Assembly (NCBI GenBank): GCA_025350565.1
Contig: JANXXO010000060.1
Span: 1-64,000 of the forward strand
From: Acidimicrobiaceae bacterium
GTDB lineage: Bacteria; Actinomycetota; Acidimicrobiia; Acidimicrobiales; RAAP-2
Length of the DNA stretch: 64,000 nt
Reading direction: 5' to 3'
Under the pieces are notes generated by a model. It was not told the DNA's origin. It was given only the letters and a program-made list of their open reading frames with translations, and did no database searches. This document shows, one piece after another, positions 4,896 through 41,178 of the stretch; position 1 is the stretch's first letter; each line of letters starts with the position of its first letter. The position numbers were made by a program, and so were the translations under genes.

Positions 4896-5167
4896 GCGTC
4901 ACGGTGAGGCTGCCCAGTCAGTTGCGGGCCCTCGTGGGCGGCGTGGGTGAAGTACCAGTGGAAGCCGGCACGGTTCGTGAGGCCATCGTGGCCGTGGACG
5001 CGGCCTTCCCCGGCATCGCCTTTCGAGTGCTGGATGACCGAGGCGCCCTTCGTCGATTCGTCAACGTCTTCGTCGCTGACGAGGACGTACGGTTCCTCGA
5101 CGGTTTGGACACCGTGGTCGTGTCGGGCCAGACGGTCTCGCTGGTTCCGGCCGTCGCCGGCGGCTGA
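4892..5167 (+). CDS. MoaD/ThiS-family sulfur-carrier-like protein
   Basis: 91 aa, 'VTVRLPSQLRALVGG..VPVEAGTVREAI', C-terminal Gly-Gly (PAVAGG*); ATGA overlap with thrC. Confidence 0.85.
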   Translation: MSVTVRLPSQLRALVGGVGEVPVEAGTVREAIVAVDAAFPGIAFRVLDDRGALRRFVNVFVADEDVRFLDGLDTVVVSGQTVSLVPAVAGG

Positions 5168-19670: not shown

Positions 19671-19793
19671 CCACCACCTCGCTCGATCGTTGTAACGCGG
19701 AGAGAGACTGAAAACACTGTTGGTGATGAGCCACGGACCCAAGACGACACTTAAGGTTCGAGCCATGGGTTTCGGGCCGATTCGTCAACCACG

Positions 19794-21515
19794 TTGGTCC
19801 AAGGACGTTCGCTCGTGTCGCTAGTACTCATTGCCCTCATCGCGGGTCTCATCGCGGGGATCTCGCCGTGCATCCTTCCGGTGCTGCCCATCATCTTCGC
19901 CGCCGGCGTCGCGACGCCCGACGTCAACCAGCTCACGCCCAACTCCTGGCGACGTTCGACGGCCATCGTGCTCGGCATTGTGGTCAGTTTCAGCGTCCTG
20001 GTGCTCGTCGGGACGGAGATTCTCAACGTCTTGCATCTTCCCTATTGGTTCCTGCGCTGGCTCGGGGTGACCGTGCTCGTCGCGGTGGGCGCCAGTTACT
20101 TGGTGCCGCAACTGGCCGTGTGGCTTGAACGCCCCTTCGCCCGTCTGGCCCGCTTTCAGCCGCGACGTTCGAGTGGCGGCTTCGTGGTGGGCCTCGGGCT
20201 CGGCCTCGTCTTCACGCCGTGCGCCGGACCGATTTTGGCCTCCATCACCGTGCTCGGATCGACCGAACACGTCAGTCTGGAGTTGGTCTTCATTACCGTC
20301 GCCTTCGCCGCCGGCGCCGGCCTGCCCCTCTTCGTCATTGCCTTTGCCGGTGACCAAATGGTGCACCGCGTTCGTTATCTTCGCGAGCGGGCCCCCACGC
20401 TTCGACACGCGGGCGGCGTGGTCTTGATCGTCATGGCGGTCGTGATTGGAGCCAATTGGCTCAGCTTCTTGCAACGCGACCTTCCCGGGTACACCACGGC
20501 GTTGCAAAATCAGTTCGAAGGTTCGAAAAGCACGCGCACCGGACTGGAGAACCTCAGGCCGGGGAAAAGCGTCGCGCTGGCCAAGTGCCCCGTCTCGTCG
20601 GCCGGACTGGTCAACTGCAGTCCCGCGCCGAGCTTCACGGACATTGCCGCGTGGCTGAACACCCCGAACGACCTGCCGCTGACGATCCAAGGACTGCACG
20701 GCAAAGTGGTGCTCGTCGACTTTTGGACGTACTCGTGCATCAACTGTCAGCGAACGTTGCCCCACGTCGAAGCGTGGTACGGGCGCTACGCGCGTTACGG
20801 CCTCGTGGTGGTCGGCGTCCAGTCACCGGAGTTCGCCTTCGAGCACATCATCAGCAACGTGAAGGTCCAGGCGAAAGCACTCGGCGTCAAGTACCCGATC
20901 GCCGTCGACAACAATCTCGGCACGTGGAACGCTTACGGCAACGAGTACTGGCCGGCCGAGTACCTCGTCGACTCGCAGGGCACGGTTCGCCACGTTGATT
21001 TCGGGGAAGGCTCCTACGCGCAGTCCGAAAGTCTGATCCGCGCCTTGCTGGTGAAGGCCCATCCCGGGTTAAAGCTTCCTCCACCGACCTCGGTGCCGAA
21101 CCTCACGCCCACCCAACAGACCAACCCCGAGTCGTACGTGGGTCTGGAGCGCCTGCAGTACCTCGACGCGAGTGTCCAGCCCCAGGCGGGCGTCCCTACG
21201 AAGCTCCGGTTCCCATCGTCCCTGCAGCCATACACCTTCGGTCTCTCGGGAACGTGGACGTTCGCCCAACAAGAGGCCACTTCGGGAGCGAAGGCAAAAC
21301 TGGAACTCAATTACCTGGCCCGACACGTGTACTTGGTCATGGGTGGCCAAGGCACCGTGACGGTCTCGGCCGGTGACGGTACGGCGCCGAGGACCATTGA
21401 GGTCCGTGGCGTCCCACGGCTCTACACGCTCTTGAACGCCTCGCAATCCTCGGCGGGGACCATGGTGTTGAAACTCTCGCCCGGCGTGCAGGCGTACGAC
21501 TTCACCTTCGGTTAA
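19794..21515 (+). CDS. dipZ: DipZ-like fusion: CcdA membrane domain + thioredoxin-like domain + C-terminal domain
   Basis: CcdA-like 'LIAGISPCILPVLPIIFAAG', 'FTPCAGPILASI'; TlpA-like 'VVLVDFWTYSCINCQRTLPHVEAWYGRY'; ~160-aa C-terminal domain. Confidence 0.93.
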   Translation: MVQGRSLVSLVLIALIAGLIAGISPCILPVLPIIFAAGVATPDVNQLTPNSWRRSTAIVLGIVVSFSVLVLVGTEILNVLHLPYWFLRWLGVTVLVAVGASYLVPQLAVWLERPFARLARFQPRRSSGGFVVGLGLGLVFTPCAGPILASITVLGSTEHVSLELVFITVAFAAGAGLPLFVIAFAGDQMVHRVRYLRERAPTLRHAGGVVLIVMAVVIGANWLSFLQRDLPGYTTALQNQFEGSKSTRTGLENLRPGKSVALAKCPVSSAGLVNCSPAPSFTDIAAWLNTPNDLPLTIQGLHGKVVLVDFWTYSCINCQRTLPHVEAWYGRYARYGLVVVGVQSPEFAFEHIISNVKVQAKALGVKYPIAVDNNLGTWNAYGNEYWPAEYLVDSQGTVRHVDFGEGSYAQSESLIRALLVKAHPGLKLPPPTSVPNLTPTQQTNPESYVGLERLQYLDASVQPQAGVPTKLRFPSSLQPYTFGLSGTWTFAQQEATSGAKAKLELNYLARHVYLVMGGQGTVTVSAGDGTAPRTIEVRGVPRLYTLLNASQSSAGTMVLKLSPGVQAYDFTFG

Positions 21516-35252: not shown

Positions 35253-36464
35253 TTACGCGCGTACTCGTTCGCTCAGCGCGTCGAGATAGTAACGAATCTG
35301 CAGGGCCACGGCCGCGCCTTCGCCCACGGCCGAGGCGATCTGTTTCGTCGAGCCGGAACGGACATCGCCGGCGGCGAAGATGCCGTCGACGCTGGTGCGA
35401 AACATGGGGTCGGTCACGATGAAGCCGCGCCCGTCAACCTCAATGTCGTGGTCGAGAAAACTCGTGTTGGGGTCGAGACCAATGAAGACGAATGCGCCGG
35501 CCGTTTCGTGGATCTCTTCCACGCCGTTGACCGACAAGGTGATCGACGCTAGTTTCCCGGTCTCGTTGGCGTTGAAGGAAGTCACCGACGTGTCCAACTT
35601 CACCGACATCTTCTGGTGGTTGACCACCTTGTCTTGGAGCAATTTCGAGGCGGAAAGAGTGGCCATTGCCTGCACCACCGTCACGTGCTCGGCGAACTGG
35701 GTGAGAAAGAGTCCCTCCTCGAGACCGCTGTTACCACCACCGATCACCGTCAGGTCCTTCGCGCCCTTGTAGAACGGTCCGTCGCACGTTGCGCAGAAGT
35801 GAACGCCCGCTCCAATGAGATCGGCCTCGCCTTCGGCGTCGGTGCGGCGATACGTCGAACCCGAGGCCACCAGCACGACGCGAGCCCGCACGGCGTCACC
35901 GGTCGAGAGATCGACGCGCAGCAGAGCGCCCTCGCGCGTGATGGCCGTCGCCCCCACCGCCTCGAGGATCTCGACGCCGTAGCGCTGCGCCTGGCGGGTC
36001 ATTCGTTCGGCCAGTTCGGCCCCGCCGACGCCGTCGGGGAATCCGGGGTAGTTGTCGAATCGTTCGGTGACGCCGGCCTGACCCCCCGACGCGCTCTTCT
36101 CCACGATCAAGACGCTCGCGTTTTCACGCGCGCCGTAAATCGCCGTGGTGAGGCCCGTAGGACCGCCGCCCACGATCACGATGTCGTACTCGCGACTGGC
36201 GGCCACCCGGGACAGACCGATTCGGTCGGCCAATTCGTCGTTGGACGGTTCGGCGAGGAAAGTTCCGTCGGGAAAGATGATGGTCGGAATAATTCGTTTG
36301 CCGCCGTGGAGCGCTTCGACGTCGGCGGTCTTCTCGGGGAACTCTTCGAGGTCAACCCACTCGTAGGGGATGCGGTGCGACGCGAGGAACTGCTTCGCGC
36401 GCCGACAGTCGGGACACCAACTGGCGCCGTAGACGGTCAGTGGAGCACTGGGGGGTGACGTCAT
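35253..36464 (-). CDS. Glutaredoxin/mycoredoxin-like domain fused to thioredoxin reductase-like FAD oxidoreductase
   Basis: N-terminus VYGASWCPDCRRAKQFLASHRIPYEWVDLEE; then IVGGGPTGLTTAIYGARENASVLIVEK and redox-active CATCDGPFYKGAKDLTVIGGGNSGLEEGLFL. Confidence 0.92.
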   Translation of the reverse strand: MTSPPSAPLTVYGASWCPDCRRAKQFLASHRIPYEWVDLEEFPEKTADVEALHGGKRIIPTIIFPDGTFLAEPSNDELADRIGLSRVAASREYDIVIVGGGPTGLTTAIYGARENASVLIVEKSASGGQAGVTERFDNYPGFPDGVGGAELAERMTRQAQRYGVEILEAVGATAITREGALLRVDLSTGDAVRARVVLVASGSTYRRTDAEGEADLIGAGVHFCATCDGPFYKGAKDLTVIGGGNSGLEEGLFLTQFAEHVTVVQAMATLSASKLLQDKVVNHQKMSVKLDTSVTSFNANETGKLASITLSVNGVEEIHETAGAFVFIGLDPNTSFLDHDIEVDGRGFIVTDPMFRTSVDGIFAAGDVRSGSTKQIASAVGEGAAVALQIRYYLDALSERVRA

Positions 36465-36476
36465 GGCGACGACCTT

Positions 36477-36731
36477 TCAACTATCAGAGTGGAAGCGACG
36501 AAAGAGTTGCACCAGACCTTCGACCGTCTCGGGCGCAAGGTCGTCGGGCGACACGGTGCCACCGGCGGCGATGATCGCGCGCATCTGGTCGAGGTAGGCG
36601 TGGCAGGCGTCGCAGCGCGCGAGGTGCTTTTCCAGGCGTCGCCGGTCGCCTCGCGACAGCGTGTGGTCGAGATAGTCGTTGACCAGTTCGACGGCGTCGC
36701 GGCACACCAGTGCTGAAGGCATCAGCTTCAT
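36477..36731 (-). CDS. Zinc-finger (ZAS/zf-HC2) anti-sigma factor
   Basis: 84 aa; HLARCDACHAYL = H-x3-C-x2-C. Confidence 0.87.
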   Translation of the reverse strand: MKLMPSALVCRDAVELVNDYLDHTLSRGDRRRLEKHLARCDACHAYLDQMRAIIAAGGTVSPDDLAPETVEGLVQLFRRFHSDS

Positions 36732-37327
36732 GGTTTCGTTCCCTTCGCCGCCTCTTCGACGATGCTCCTGACTCGAGCGCGTCCTCGGTGCAAAATCACC
36801 CGCACGTTGGCCTCACTGAGCGTCAGCAGTTCGGCGACCTCCTGCGTTGTTAGTCCCTCGACGTCACGAAGCGTTACGACCGCGCGTTGGGGTTCACCGA
36901 GCGACCGGATGGCGCCGTGCACCTCGGCCACGAGGTGACTGCGATCGATCCGTGCGTCGACGGCGTCGGTGAAGGGTACGGGTGGTTCGCTCCAGAGGCC
37001 CCCCTGATCGAACCGGTGCGCCGAAACGCTCGGTCCGGACTCGTTGGTGTCCACGGGGATCGAGCGGTGTTCCTTGACGCCGAGGGTTCGCGCGCGGTTC
37101 ACGCAGATTCGAAGCAGCCACGTTTTGAACGAACTTCGACCTTCGAAGTGCTCCACGCCACGCATGACGGCGATCCAGGTCTCTTGGGCGACGTCCTGGG
37201 CACTGGCGCTCGAACCGACGTAGTAGCGAGCAATTTTCACCAGGGTCGAGTGGTAACGCTCCACCAGTTCGGTGAACGCCTGTTCGTCGCCACCGAGCAG
37301 TCTCGCCAAGAGCTCGGTGTCGTCCAC
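36728..37327 (-). CDS. ECF-family RNA polymerase sigma factor
   Basis: AFTELVERYHSTLVKIARYYVGSSASAQDVAQETWIAVMRGVEHFEGRSSFKTWLLRICVNRA; region 4 'PQRAVVTLRDVEGLTTQEVAELLTLSEANVRVILHRGRARVR'. Confidence 0.95.
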   Translation of the reverse strand: MDDTELLARLLGGDEQAFTELVERYHSTLVKIARYYVGSSASAQDVAQETWIAVMRGVEHFEGRSSFKTWLLRICVNRARTLGVKEHRSIPVDTNESGPSVSAHRFDQGGLWSEPPVPFTDAVDARIDRSHLVAEVHGAIRSLGEPQRAVVTLRDVEGLTTQEVAELLTLSEANVRVILHRGRARVRSIVEEAAKGTKP

Positions 37328-39405: not shown

Positions 39406-40224
39406 CTAGGCCGCCAGCAACGTGCGCTGACGCTGTTGGGCGACGGCCGTTCGCACTAAAGCACGAGCTCCGGACCGCAGGTCATCCATGGTGCCGTCAA
39501 CGCTGAGACAGACTCCCGCTTCGGGCCAGAGGCCAATGAACCGGGCCGGCGCGATGCCGTCGTGGTGAGCCAGCGTCTCGATGGTGAGGTCAGCGCGCAG
39601 TCCCGGTCCGGCACTCTTGCCGGGCGTCCCGGCGCGCACCCGCACGACGATCCGCTCGTCGCCCTGAGTGAGCAGGAGGTCTCGACGGGCGCGAAGGGTC
39701 GTCCGGGCCGTCGCGACGTCGTAGTAGGCGTCCGCGGTGGCGACGGTGCAGGGCAGGGGCAGGGCTTGAGCGATCTCGTGAAGTTGCGTCGCCCAGGTGA
39801 CGGCCTCGGCGGTGACGAGTCCCAGTACCGGATGGGGTGACGAGGCCAGCCAGTAGGCCAGTGATCCCCCTCGGGCGTAGCCGGAGGCGGCGCGCAGCAA
39901 CTGGTCCGCTAGCTCATCGCGCACGGCGTCAATGATCGAGAGCGAACGCTGGCCTTTCATTCGTCGCAGGGCGCCGTTACCGAGCACCCGGCGCGACGTC
40001 GCGGGCGACCAACGAAACGTCGACGCCCCTCGCCCCGCCTGCTCCACGGACCAGGCGTCCAGCCGACGATGTCCCGGTGAGGCGACACCGCGAAACCGCG
40101 AGGTAAGGGATTTGCGGTGATCATCGGTGAGCTGGACGGGGCCGCCGGGGGCACTGTGCACGAGGTCGTGCAACTGTTCACTGGTGAGGCGACGGTGGTG
40201 CAGCGTGGTCACGTTGGTGGCCAC
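39406..40224 (-). CDS. Hypothetical protein (no family recognised)
   Basis: 272-aa ORF with consistent coding frame; overlaps upstream 40209-41006 ORF by 16 bp. Confidence 0.7.
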   Translation of the reverse strand: MATNVTTLHHRRLTSEQLHDLVHSAPGGPVQLTDDHRKSLTSRFRGVASPGHRRLDAWSVEQAGRGASTFRWSPATSRRVLGNGALRRMKGQRSLSIIDAVRDELADQLLRAASGYARGGSLAYWLASSPHPVLGLVTAEAVTWATQLHEIAQALPLPCTVATADAYYDVATARTTLRARRDLLLTQGDERIVVRVRAGTPGKSAGPGLRADLTIETLAHHDGIAPARFIGLWPEAGVCLSVDGTMDDLRSGARALVRTAVAQQRQRTLLAA

Positions 40225-41006
40225 AGTGAGGCCACGGCCTCGAGCACGTCGTCGACACTTCGCGAGAGCAGTTCGTAGTCAACGTCACGCATCCACAGTT
40301 CACCCGTCGCCGTCGAGAACGTGCACGTGCGCAGCGGCATGGTGGAAGTCCGCAGAGTCTGCACGAGCGCGTGGAACCGCATGGTGCGTTCCGCCGCCTC
40401 GCCGAGGGGTGAGGTCGTGACGTCGAAGAGGGCGACCGAGGCGGTGTCACTGGTGGTCGATCCGATCATGAGGTCGACCACGTCACGCAGTACCACGCTG
40501 CCCCCCGCTAATCGTTGGCTCGCTCGCACGCCACTTCGAGGGAGCCAACCGGCCGGGATCGTCCCGAGCGCTCGCGCGAGCGCCACGCGGTGGGCGCCGA
40601 GGTCCGTGGCCAAACGCGCCCGCTCGTCGTCGTCCAGTCGGTCGAGCTGTTCCAGCAGTTCCGAGGTGTCGACTTCGCTGCGCCACGCCAGCACCGCATC
40701 GTCGAAGGCGTGATCGATGACGACGCCGACGCTCATGAGTCGAAGAATTTGACTGATGAGGACACCGCGCAACCGACCGTGACTCGACGTCGAAAACTCT
40801 GAGGTCTTCGGGCGAAGGTGCAGCGACGAGGGACGTACCACCACGGGCGTCGTCAGTTGCGTCGCACCAATGAGGTCGTAAAGGCCATCGTCCAAGGTGG
40901 CGCGCAGTCCGGCGCTCACCGTCGTGTCGTTGCGCGGTCGTCGGGTTCGGTCACCGCGCAGTGCGTCGACCACGCTACGCGGAGAGGAGTCGAGCAGTGT
41001 TGTCAT
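40209..41006 (-). CDS. Hypothetical protein (no family recognised)
   Basis: MTTLLDSSPRSVVDALRGDRTRRPRND...; C-terminus 'ALFDVTTSPLGEAAERTMRFHALVQTLRTSTMPLRTCTF'. Confidence 0.72.
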   Translation of the reverse strand: MTTLLDSSPRSVVDALRGDRTRRPRNDTTVSAGLRATLDDGLYDLIGATQLTTPVVVRPSSLHLRPKTSEFSTSSHGRLRGVLISQILRLMSVGVVIDHAFDDAVLAWRSEVDTSELLEQLDRLDDDERARLATDLGAHRVALARALGTIPAGWLPRSGVRASQRLAGGSVVLRDVVDLMIGSTTSDTASVALFDVTTSPLGEAAERTMRFHALVQTLRTSTMPLRTCTFSTATGELWMRDVDYELLSRSVDDVLEAVASLWPPT

Positions 41007-41178
41007 GGAGCAACTCTTGCGCACCCTTGTGACAGGTCCTAGCCTGCGAGGTGTGTTCACTGCCGTCTTTTCGGTCTTCGTCCTCGCCCTCGTGGTGCTC
41101 GTGGTGCTGACGATTCGTTGGGCCGTGCGCCGCGACCGCGCCGGGCGCGCGGCCTGGTTGGAGCGTAAGAAGCCCTAA
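41005..41178 (+). CDS. Small single-TM membrane protein
   Basis: 57 aa, VFTAVFSVFVLALVVLVVLTIRWAVRRDRAGRAAWLERKKP; divergent from 40209-41006. A GTG start near 41053 is an alternative. Confidence 0.5.
   Translation: MEQLLRTLVTGPSLRGVFTAVFSVFVLALVVLVVLTIRWAVRRDRAGRAAWLERKKP

Follow-up and report, generated by a model that had tools for sequence, protein, structure and literature searches.

A predicted redox-responsive ECF sigma/zinc anti-sigma circuit with a promoter-like element inside the sigma gene and a glutaredoxin-thioredoxin-reductase-like fusion in an uncultured Acidimicrobiaceae bacterium

Introduction

In the genome of an Acidimicrobiaceae bacterium, an ECF sigma factor gene is followed by genes for a zinc anti-sigma factor and for a protein that joins a glutaredoxin-like domain to a thioredoxin-reductase-like core. 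The locus raises the question of whether the three genes form one redox circuit and which further genes the sigma factor controls. A sequence-only reading had taken them for an autoregulated thiol-stress module of the SigR/RsrA kind. In the present study, we compared the locus with related genomes. The account that we consider probable is that a redox-responsive sigma factor drives thiol- and methionine-repair genes together with its own off-switch, in which we infer both the regulation and the redox sensing.

Gene organization of the locus

The window analysed here is the whole stretch of 64,000 nucleotides from contig JANXXO010000060.1. It belongs to a 2.05-Mb metagenome-assembled genome (MAG) that is 93.8% complete and contains 11 Sigma70_r2 matches; the nearest relatives of this source genome in the fusion search were Acidimicrobiales and Acidimicrobiaceae. 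The features of the window are as follows.

36728..37327, minus strand: ECF sigma factor, 199 aa, GTG start, with Sigma70_r2 and r4_2 (Pfam)
36477..36731, minus strand: soluble zinc anti-sigma factor (zf-HC2), 84 aa, C10-H36-C40-C43
35253..36464, minus strand: glutaredoxin/mycoredoxin-like (CPDC)-thioredoxin-reductase-like (CATC) fusion, 403 aa
37335..37340, minus strand: TACTGT, a TANNNT-type -10, 7 nt before the sigma GTG; predicted leaderless housekeeping-type start
36851..36877, minus strand: predicted intragenic ECF-type promoter in the sigma gene, GTAACG-CTTCGTGACGTCGAGGG-ACTA; matrix match and codon conservation
19691..19719, plus strand: predicted sigma-dependent promoter TGTAACG-N18-ACTG upstream of dipZ; best matrix match in the window
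19794..21515, plus strand: DipZ/DsbD-type membrane thiol reductase with DsbD_TM, redoxin and Thioredoxin_10 domains; predicted to belong to the regulon, with an uncertain exact start

Coordinates and Pfam matches bore out exactly the arrangement first read from the sequence: an ECF sigma gene overlaps by ATGA with the gene of an 84-aa HxxxCxxC anti-sigma factor, and a gap of 12 nt separates the latter from the CPDC-CATC fusion. The same order was found in three other species (L002, L003 and L004) at sigma identities of 67-81% and is thus not due to chance. Among the loci compared, the same-strand cassette was confined to the window and these three; beside the fusion of L028, L038 and L066 lay a relative of sigma and/or anti-sigma, in other orientations. 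Sigma orthologues were found in L002-L007, L011, L112 and L113. The sigma gene of L005 (3953-4639) was apparently truncated or frameshifted, by assembly error or decay, with an in-frame alignment over residues 1-156 only. Elsewhere in the window, an adjacent gene pair (39406-40224 and 40209-41060) had no Pfam match, and similar genes lay upstream of bipA in L001-L004.

A shared promoter motif and a predicted regulon

The sigma gene was divergent from a secreted Lactonase-type beta-propeller gene in L003, L005, L006, L007, L011 and L112 and, with more distant sigmas, in L120, L127, L128 and L130; the source MAG, 93.8% complete, gave no match to the propeller gene. All 11 propeller genes were preceded by TGTAAC and, after 18 or 19 nt, by ACTG, ACTA or ACAG, which gave the consensus TGTAACG-N17/18-ACTR. 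At L002, where the propeller is absent, a decayed copy of its promoter (TTGTCACGCGAATG, opposite strand) was seen upstream of the sigma gene (~5060-5126), suggesting gene loss between tRNA-Ser and sigma.

A matrix was built from the 11 propeller sites, none of which came from the source genome, and was run over the window. The top match, 22.1 bits against null maxima of 10.9-15.1, lay ~100 nt before dipZ, and the second-best lay inside the sigma gene. Counts over related genomes, several of them MAGs, which are not independent and include a small sigma-negative set, placed the dipZ motif in seven of nine sigma-positive genomes (G000, G466, G467, G110, G471, G472 and G168, not G469 and G470) vs none of five sigma-negative ones (Fisher p = 0.021), and an msrB paralogue (NEFWD...GCGWPSF) in 9/10 sigma-positive genomes vs 0/7 without the orthologous pair, two of which (G142 and G437) have a distant anti-sigma relative. 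All nine copies of this paralogue carried TGTAACG 63-187 nt before the conserved start, and a TGTAACG-type match upstream of msrB was found in the genome of L007. The paralogue is the sole MsrB of the source genome, where the -10 of its site was weak (8.6 bits). Sigma-positive G468 (L230) is without it, and TGTAACG there precedes the gene of the other, zinc-type MsrB. Other exact TGTAACG matches in the source genome (C81 and C98) were not convincing as regulon members; at G000:C98:793 (L217), TGTAACG-N18-ACT stands 66 nt before a gene for a possible membrane protein of 100 aa.

A promoter-like element inside the sigma gene

The coding strand at 36851-36877 reads GTAACGCTTCGTGACGTCGAGGGACTA. 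This intragenic site scored 13.5 bits, within the null range, so that the case for a promoter rests on conservation. Considering only amino-acid-invariant codons of 4/6-fold degeneracy in nine species, 6 of 8 within codons 150-159 were conserved in at least eight species vs 2 of 45 outside (Fisher p = 3e-5). The rare site codons GTA, GGA and CTA were fixed in all nine species and CTT in eight, at sigma identities of 56-100%. GTA accounts for ~2-5% of Val codons and CTA for ~1-3% of Leu codons, and elsewhere in the sigma gene 60-74% of synonymous codons differed from the window. Of the two conserved codons outside this segment, one is a GGA close to where the anti-sigma gene starts and plausibly serves as the anti-sigma ribosome site. 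The intragenic site was absent from sigma relatives at <=52% identity. As judged from codon conservation, this pattern shows selection for a regulatory element inside the sigma gene. The simplest reading is that the element would be a sigma-dependent promoter for the anti-sigma gene and, in the cassette genomes, for the fusion, into which the predicted promoter reads in all four.

Supply of the sigma factor

A TANNNT element was found 6-8 nt upstream of the start codon in all 13 sigma orthologues examined, with a chance expectation of ~3% each. TANNNT close to the start is typical of leaderless housekeeping transcription in Actinobacteria. The sigma factor is probably made constitutively from such a housekeeping-type leaderless promoter, and self-induction in the manner of SigR p2 was not evident. 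Directly upstream of sigma in the source genome, no sigma-type promoter was found; ACTGTT fits a -10, with no -35. A possible -35 was kept in L002 and L003 only, and in L003 it overlaps the -35 box in the promoter of the divergent propeller gene. Of the autoregulation claimed in the sequence-only reading, the feedback architecture stands, with a predicted sigma-type promoter within sigma feeding the anti-sigma and fusion genes, but autoregulation of sigma in the SigR p2 sense does not.

The anti-sigma factor and its signal

The anti-sigma protein matched zf-HC2 (1.9e-12; 47.5 bits vs the Pfam cut-off of 22.2) and its gene adjoins that of an ECF sigma factor, which places it among class I zf-HC2 anti-sigma factors. 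It is soluble, without a membrane segment, and has an additional N-terminal Cys, C10, giving C10-H36-C40-C43; the four ligands were conserved in every homologue with those positions aligned. This C-H-C-C spacing is that of RsrA (C11/H37/C41/C44, PMC4960319), the ligand pattern of an RsrA-type redox ZAS. Redox release of RsrA requires the N-terminal Cys, and relatives with HHCC ligands are unresponsive to disulfide stress (PMC4960319). To judge by its ligands, the anti-sigma factor most probably responds to oxidation at the zinc thiolates; redox sensing is likely rather than certain because the zinc motif can be structural in other anti-sigmas, e.g., RsiW (PMC7406223). The role in thiol or oxidative stress that had been proposed gained support from the CHCC anti-sigma and from the regulon, predicted to comprise dipZ, msrB and the fusion. 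An MshC-like gene was present in the source genome (431 bits vs a cut-off of 485), which makes mycothiol synthesis plausible.

The regulon could be right and the signal something other than cytoplasmic disulfide stress, with a structural zinc site, as in RsiW, and another trigger, for instance oxidation in the envelope or hypochlorite whose effect a further factor passes on. DipZ and the propeller, the conserved partners, belong to the membrane or are secreted. MsrAB is under the control of sigmaE-MseR in Neisseria and of RpoE2-HrsE in Haemophilus, there under HOCl (PMC3240639, PMC7907618). However, an anti-sigma that is soluble, lacks a membrane segment and carries CHCC rather than HHCC fits such a signal poorly, and we hold this explanation to be somewhat unlikely.

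The glutaredoxin-thioredoxin-reductase-like fusion

The fusion has a Pfam Glutaredoxin domain (PF00462, residues 10-64, 5.7e-11) and a Pyr_redox_2 domain (residues 93-383, 1.4e-43), with the CxxC motifs CPDC and CATC. A scan of GTDB contigs yielded 80 fusion loci with identities of 49-84%, spread over Actinobacteria, Chloroflexota, Dormibacterota and a small number of further groups, so the idea that the fusion is a rare novelty was rejected; within the order, ~13 of 198 sampled genomes had a clear CxxC/CxxC copy. Both motifs were retained in nearly all fusions. At L095-L099, L101 and L105, TrxR-like proteins of the same order matched over the fusion length, retained neither CxxC motif (e.g., SPDT, AATE) and had longer open frames.

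The HRRxxxR motif, taken as a mark of NAD(P)H-dependent TrxRs (PMC10880999), was absent from every CPDC/CATC fusion examined, the window protein having QAMATLS there, and was present in stand-alone TrxRs of the same order where the sequence was readable at the motif. At the end of the corresponding strand, many fusions carry Glu and the window protein carries Gln. Glu at this position favours NADH, and AhpF is also without HRRxxxR. The fusion would probably use NAD(P)H without being NADPH-specific, and the earlier assumption of NADPH as the electron source is not upheld by the missing motif.

An AlphaFold model of the fusion (alignment A1, 66 homologues) reached a pLDDT of 93.9 and a pTM of 0.89, and Foldseek ranks 1 and 2 were AhpF (E. 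coli AhpF), matched over the whole chain (407 columns). The fusion has the AhpF architecture of an N-terminal thioredoxin-fold CxxC domain and a TrxR core. It scored below the cut-offs for AhpF (TIGR03140, 236 vs 502.9 bits), low-Mr thioredoxin reductase (TIGR01292, 276 vs 343, CATC present) and mycoredoxin (TIGR02200, 67.6 vs 89.5) and passed the Pfam Glutaredoxin cut-off. Because the model is confident and AhpF is the best whole-chain fold match, the fusion is predicted to work like AhpF in outline despite failing these equivalog cut-offs. Unlike AhpF, with its longer N-terminal domain, it has one glutaredoxin domain of ~80 residues, and no ahpC neighbour was seen. Glutaredoxin is likewise fused N-terminal to thioredoxin reductase in the TGR of flatworms and mammals; TGR is a high-molecular-weight, often selenocysteine-containing TrxR, whereas the fusion is of the bacterial low-molecular-weight type. 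No gene neighbour was generally conserved across the fusion loci. MsrB adjoins in a few, and at L013, L020 and L021 an MsrB-like gene lay immediately upstream, suggesting that the fusion may be a reductant of MsrB. A second glutaredoxin-like domain adjoined the fusion downstream in L079 (7238-7468) and upstream in L094 (2095-2322).

The fusion might be an operon hitchhiker, expressed constitutively from the leaderless promoter of sigma, outside the control of the sigma factor and functionally unrelated to the pair. Most of about 90 fusion loci altogether had no sigma pair, which does not support the earlier notion of a general tie to this regulator; the cassette order was confined to one clade, and the nearest fusions outside the four cassette genomes mostly had their own TANNNT start (L005-L008, L011 and L082). 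We nevertheless regard hitchhiking as unlikely, since the predicted intragenic promoter runs into the fusion in 4/4 cassette genomes and the pair lies close to the fusion in further arrangements (L005, L006, L007, L011, L028, L038 and L066). In addition, fusion genes at 6 of 92 loci, vs 0.35 expected, carried their own TGTAACG-type motif, among them L038 and L028, which have a sigma and/or anti-sigma relative as a neighbour.

Sigma factor assignment and comparison with known systems

The GTAAC-type -35 box is common among ECF sigmas, and the source genome has 11 Sigma70_r2 matches. The TGTAACG promoters could thus belong to a different ECF sigma and coincide with these genes, and G397, which lacks the pair, has a similar TGTAACG site before a zinc-type msrB paralogue; this is quite improbable, since the motif occurs in the gap that separates sigma from the divergent propeller gene and within sigma itself, and the dipZ and msrB sites follow the presence of the pair. 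Orthology with Streptomyces SigR-RsrA (mycobacterial SigH-RshA), the fusion standing in place of trxBA, is very improbable and largely refuted: the CHCC spacing is identical, thioredoxin, mycoredoxin and methionine sulfoxide reductases also belong to the SigR regulon, and rsrA likewise has a promoter inside sigR (PMC5472188), but the curated models fail (sigma 44.1 bits vs 251.55 for SigH_actino/SigR, TIGR02947; anti-sigma 31.8 vs 62.5 for the RsrA equivalog, TIGR03988), the promoter is TGTAACG-N17/18-ACTR, and the best solved relatives of sigma are RpoE-type, not SigH. No gene in the source genome exceeded the TIGR02947 cut-off, which one control genome passed. GGGAAT-N18-GTT, anticipated upstream of 37327, was absent there; its two matches in the window, vs 1.0 expected, lay elsewhere. 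The SigR/RsrA likeness thus holds for the CHCC spacing and fails for kinship.

As a system, the pair resembles SigR-RsrA (actinobacterial SigH-RshA) in an ECF sigma with an adjacent soluble CHCC zinc anti-sigma of identical spacing (PMC4960319), in targets, here predicted, that include thiol reductases and Msr, and in an anti-sigma promoter, here predicted, inside the sigma gene (PMC5472188). Unlike SigR-RsrA, it fails both family models, has a different promoter consensus and no recognisable sigma self-promoter upstream, and its intragenic promoter matches its own regulon; its predicted targets are dipZ, the propeller and the fused Grx-TrxR. Neisseria sigmaE-MseR and Haemophilus RpoE2-HrsE share an ECF sigma with an adjacent anti-sigma controlling methionine sulfoxide reductase, here predicted (PMC3240639, PMC7907618); they differ in being proteobacterial and in the positive feedback reported for the sigmaE operon, and the available parts of these reports name no Grx-TrxR or DipZ target. 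Mycobacterial SigK-RskA also combines an ECF sigma with a dipZ target, here predicted, and secreted proteins encoded alongside (PMC9861118). In contrast, RskA is independent of the zinc motif (PMC7406223), and SigK is only a weak sequence match to the sigma factor. At L117, L118 and L119, a gene for a dihydrolipoamide-dehydrogenase-like flavoprotein (GGECSYWGCMPSKAL) lay immediately upstream of the sigma relatives. No description of this sigma group or of a low-Mr Grx-TrxR fusion was found in the open-licence papers searched.

Proposed mechanism and significance

The gene order, domains, CHCC ligands, missing HRRxxxR, conserved promoter motifs and synonymous constraint were read from the sequences. 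From these we infer recognition of the motifs by sigma, the redox trigger, the electron flow and re-reduction of the anti-sigma. In the proposed mechanism, a housekeeping-type leaderless promoter would supply the sigma factor, which the soluble CHCC zinc anti-sigma would hold until its zinc thiolates are oxidised. Released sigma would transcribe a small protein-repair regulon from TGTAACG-N17/18-ACTR promoters, comprising msrB (methionine sulfoxide reductase), dipZ (membrane thiol conduit) and, in relatives, the secreted beta-propeller. From the promoter within its own coding sequence, it would also transcribe the anti-sigma and the downstream Grx-TrxR fusion. The fusion may act as a one-piece AhpF, passing electrons from NAD(P)H through FAD, CATC and CPDC to oxidised substrates. 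The system would be switched off by the induced anti-sigma, whose re-reduction would fall to the fusion or the general thiol pool. Only tentatively do we suggest the fuller picture of an ECF system new to description in uncultured Acidimicrobiia, in which the embedded sigma-dependent promoter makes the anti-sigma and a self-contained, non-NADPH, AhpF-like Grx-TrxR that re-reduces that same anti-sigma, a closed self-damping redox circuit on one transcript.

For an unassigned ECF/zinc anti-sigma pair from a large uncultured group of Actinobacteria, these results offer a concrete, testable promoter motif and a predicted regulon. They define a widespread Grx-TrxR family, whose NADPH dependence should not be presumed. 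A separate anti-sigma promoter recurs in redox sigma systems, in Streptomyces rsrA within sigR (PMC5472188) and, as predicted, here; unlike in the rsrA case, the promoter here would be driven by the system's own sigma and would, in one clade, serve the reductase as well.
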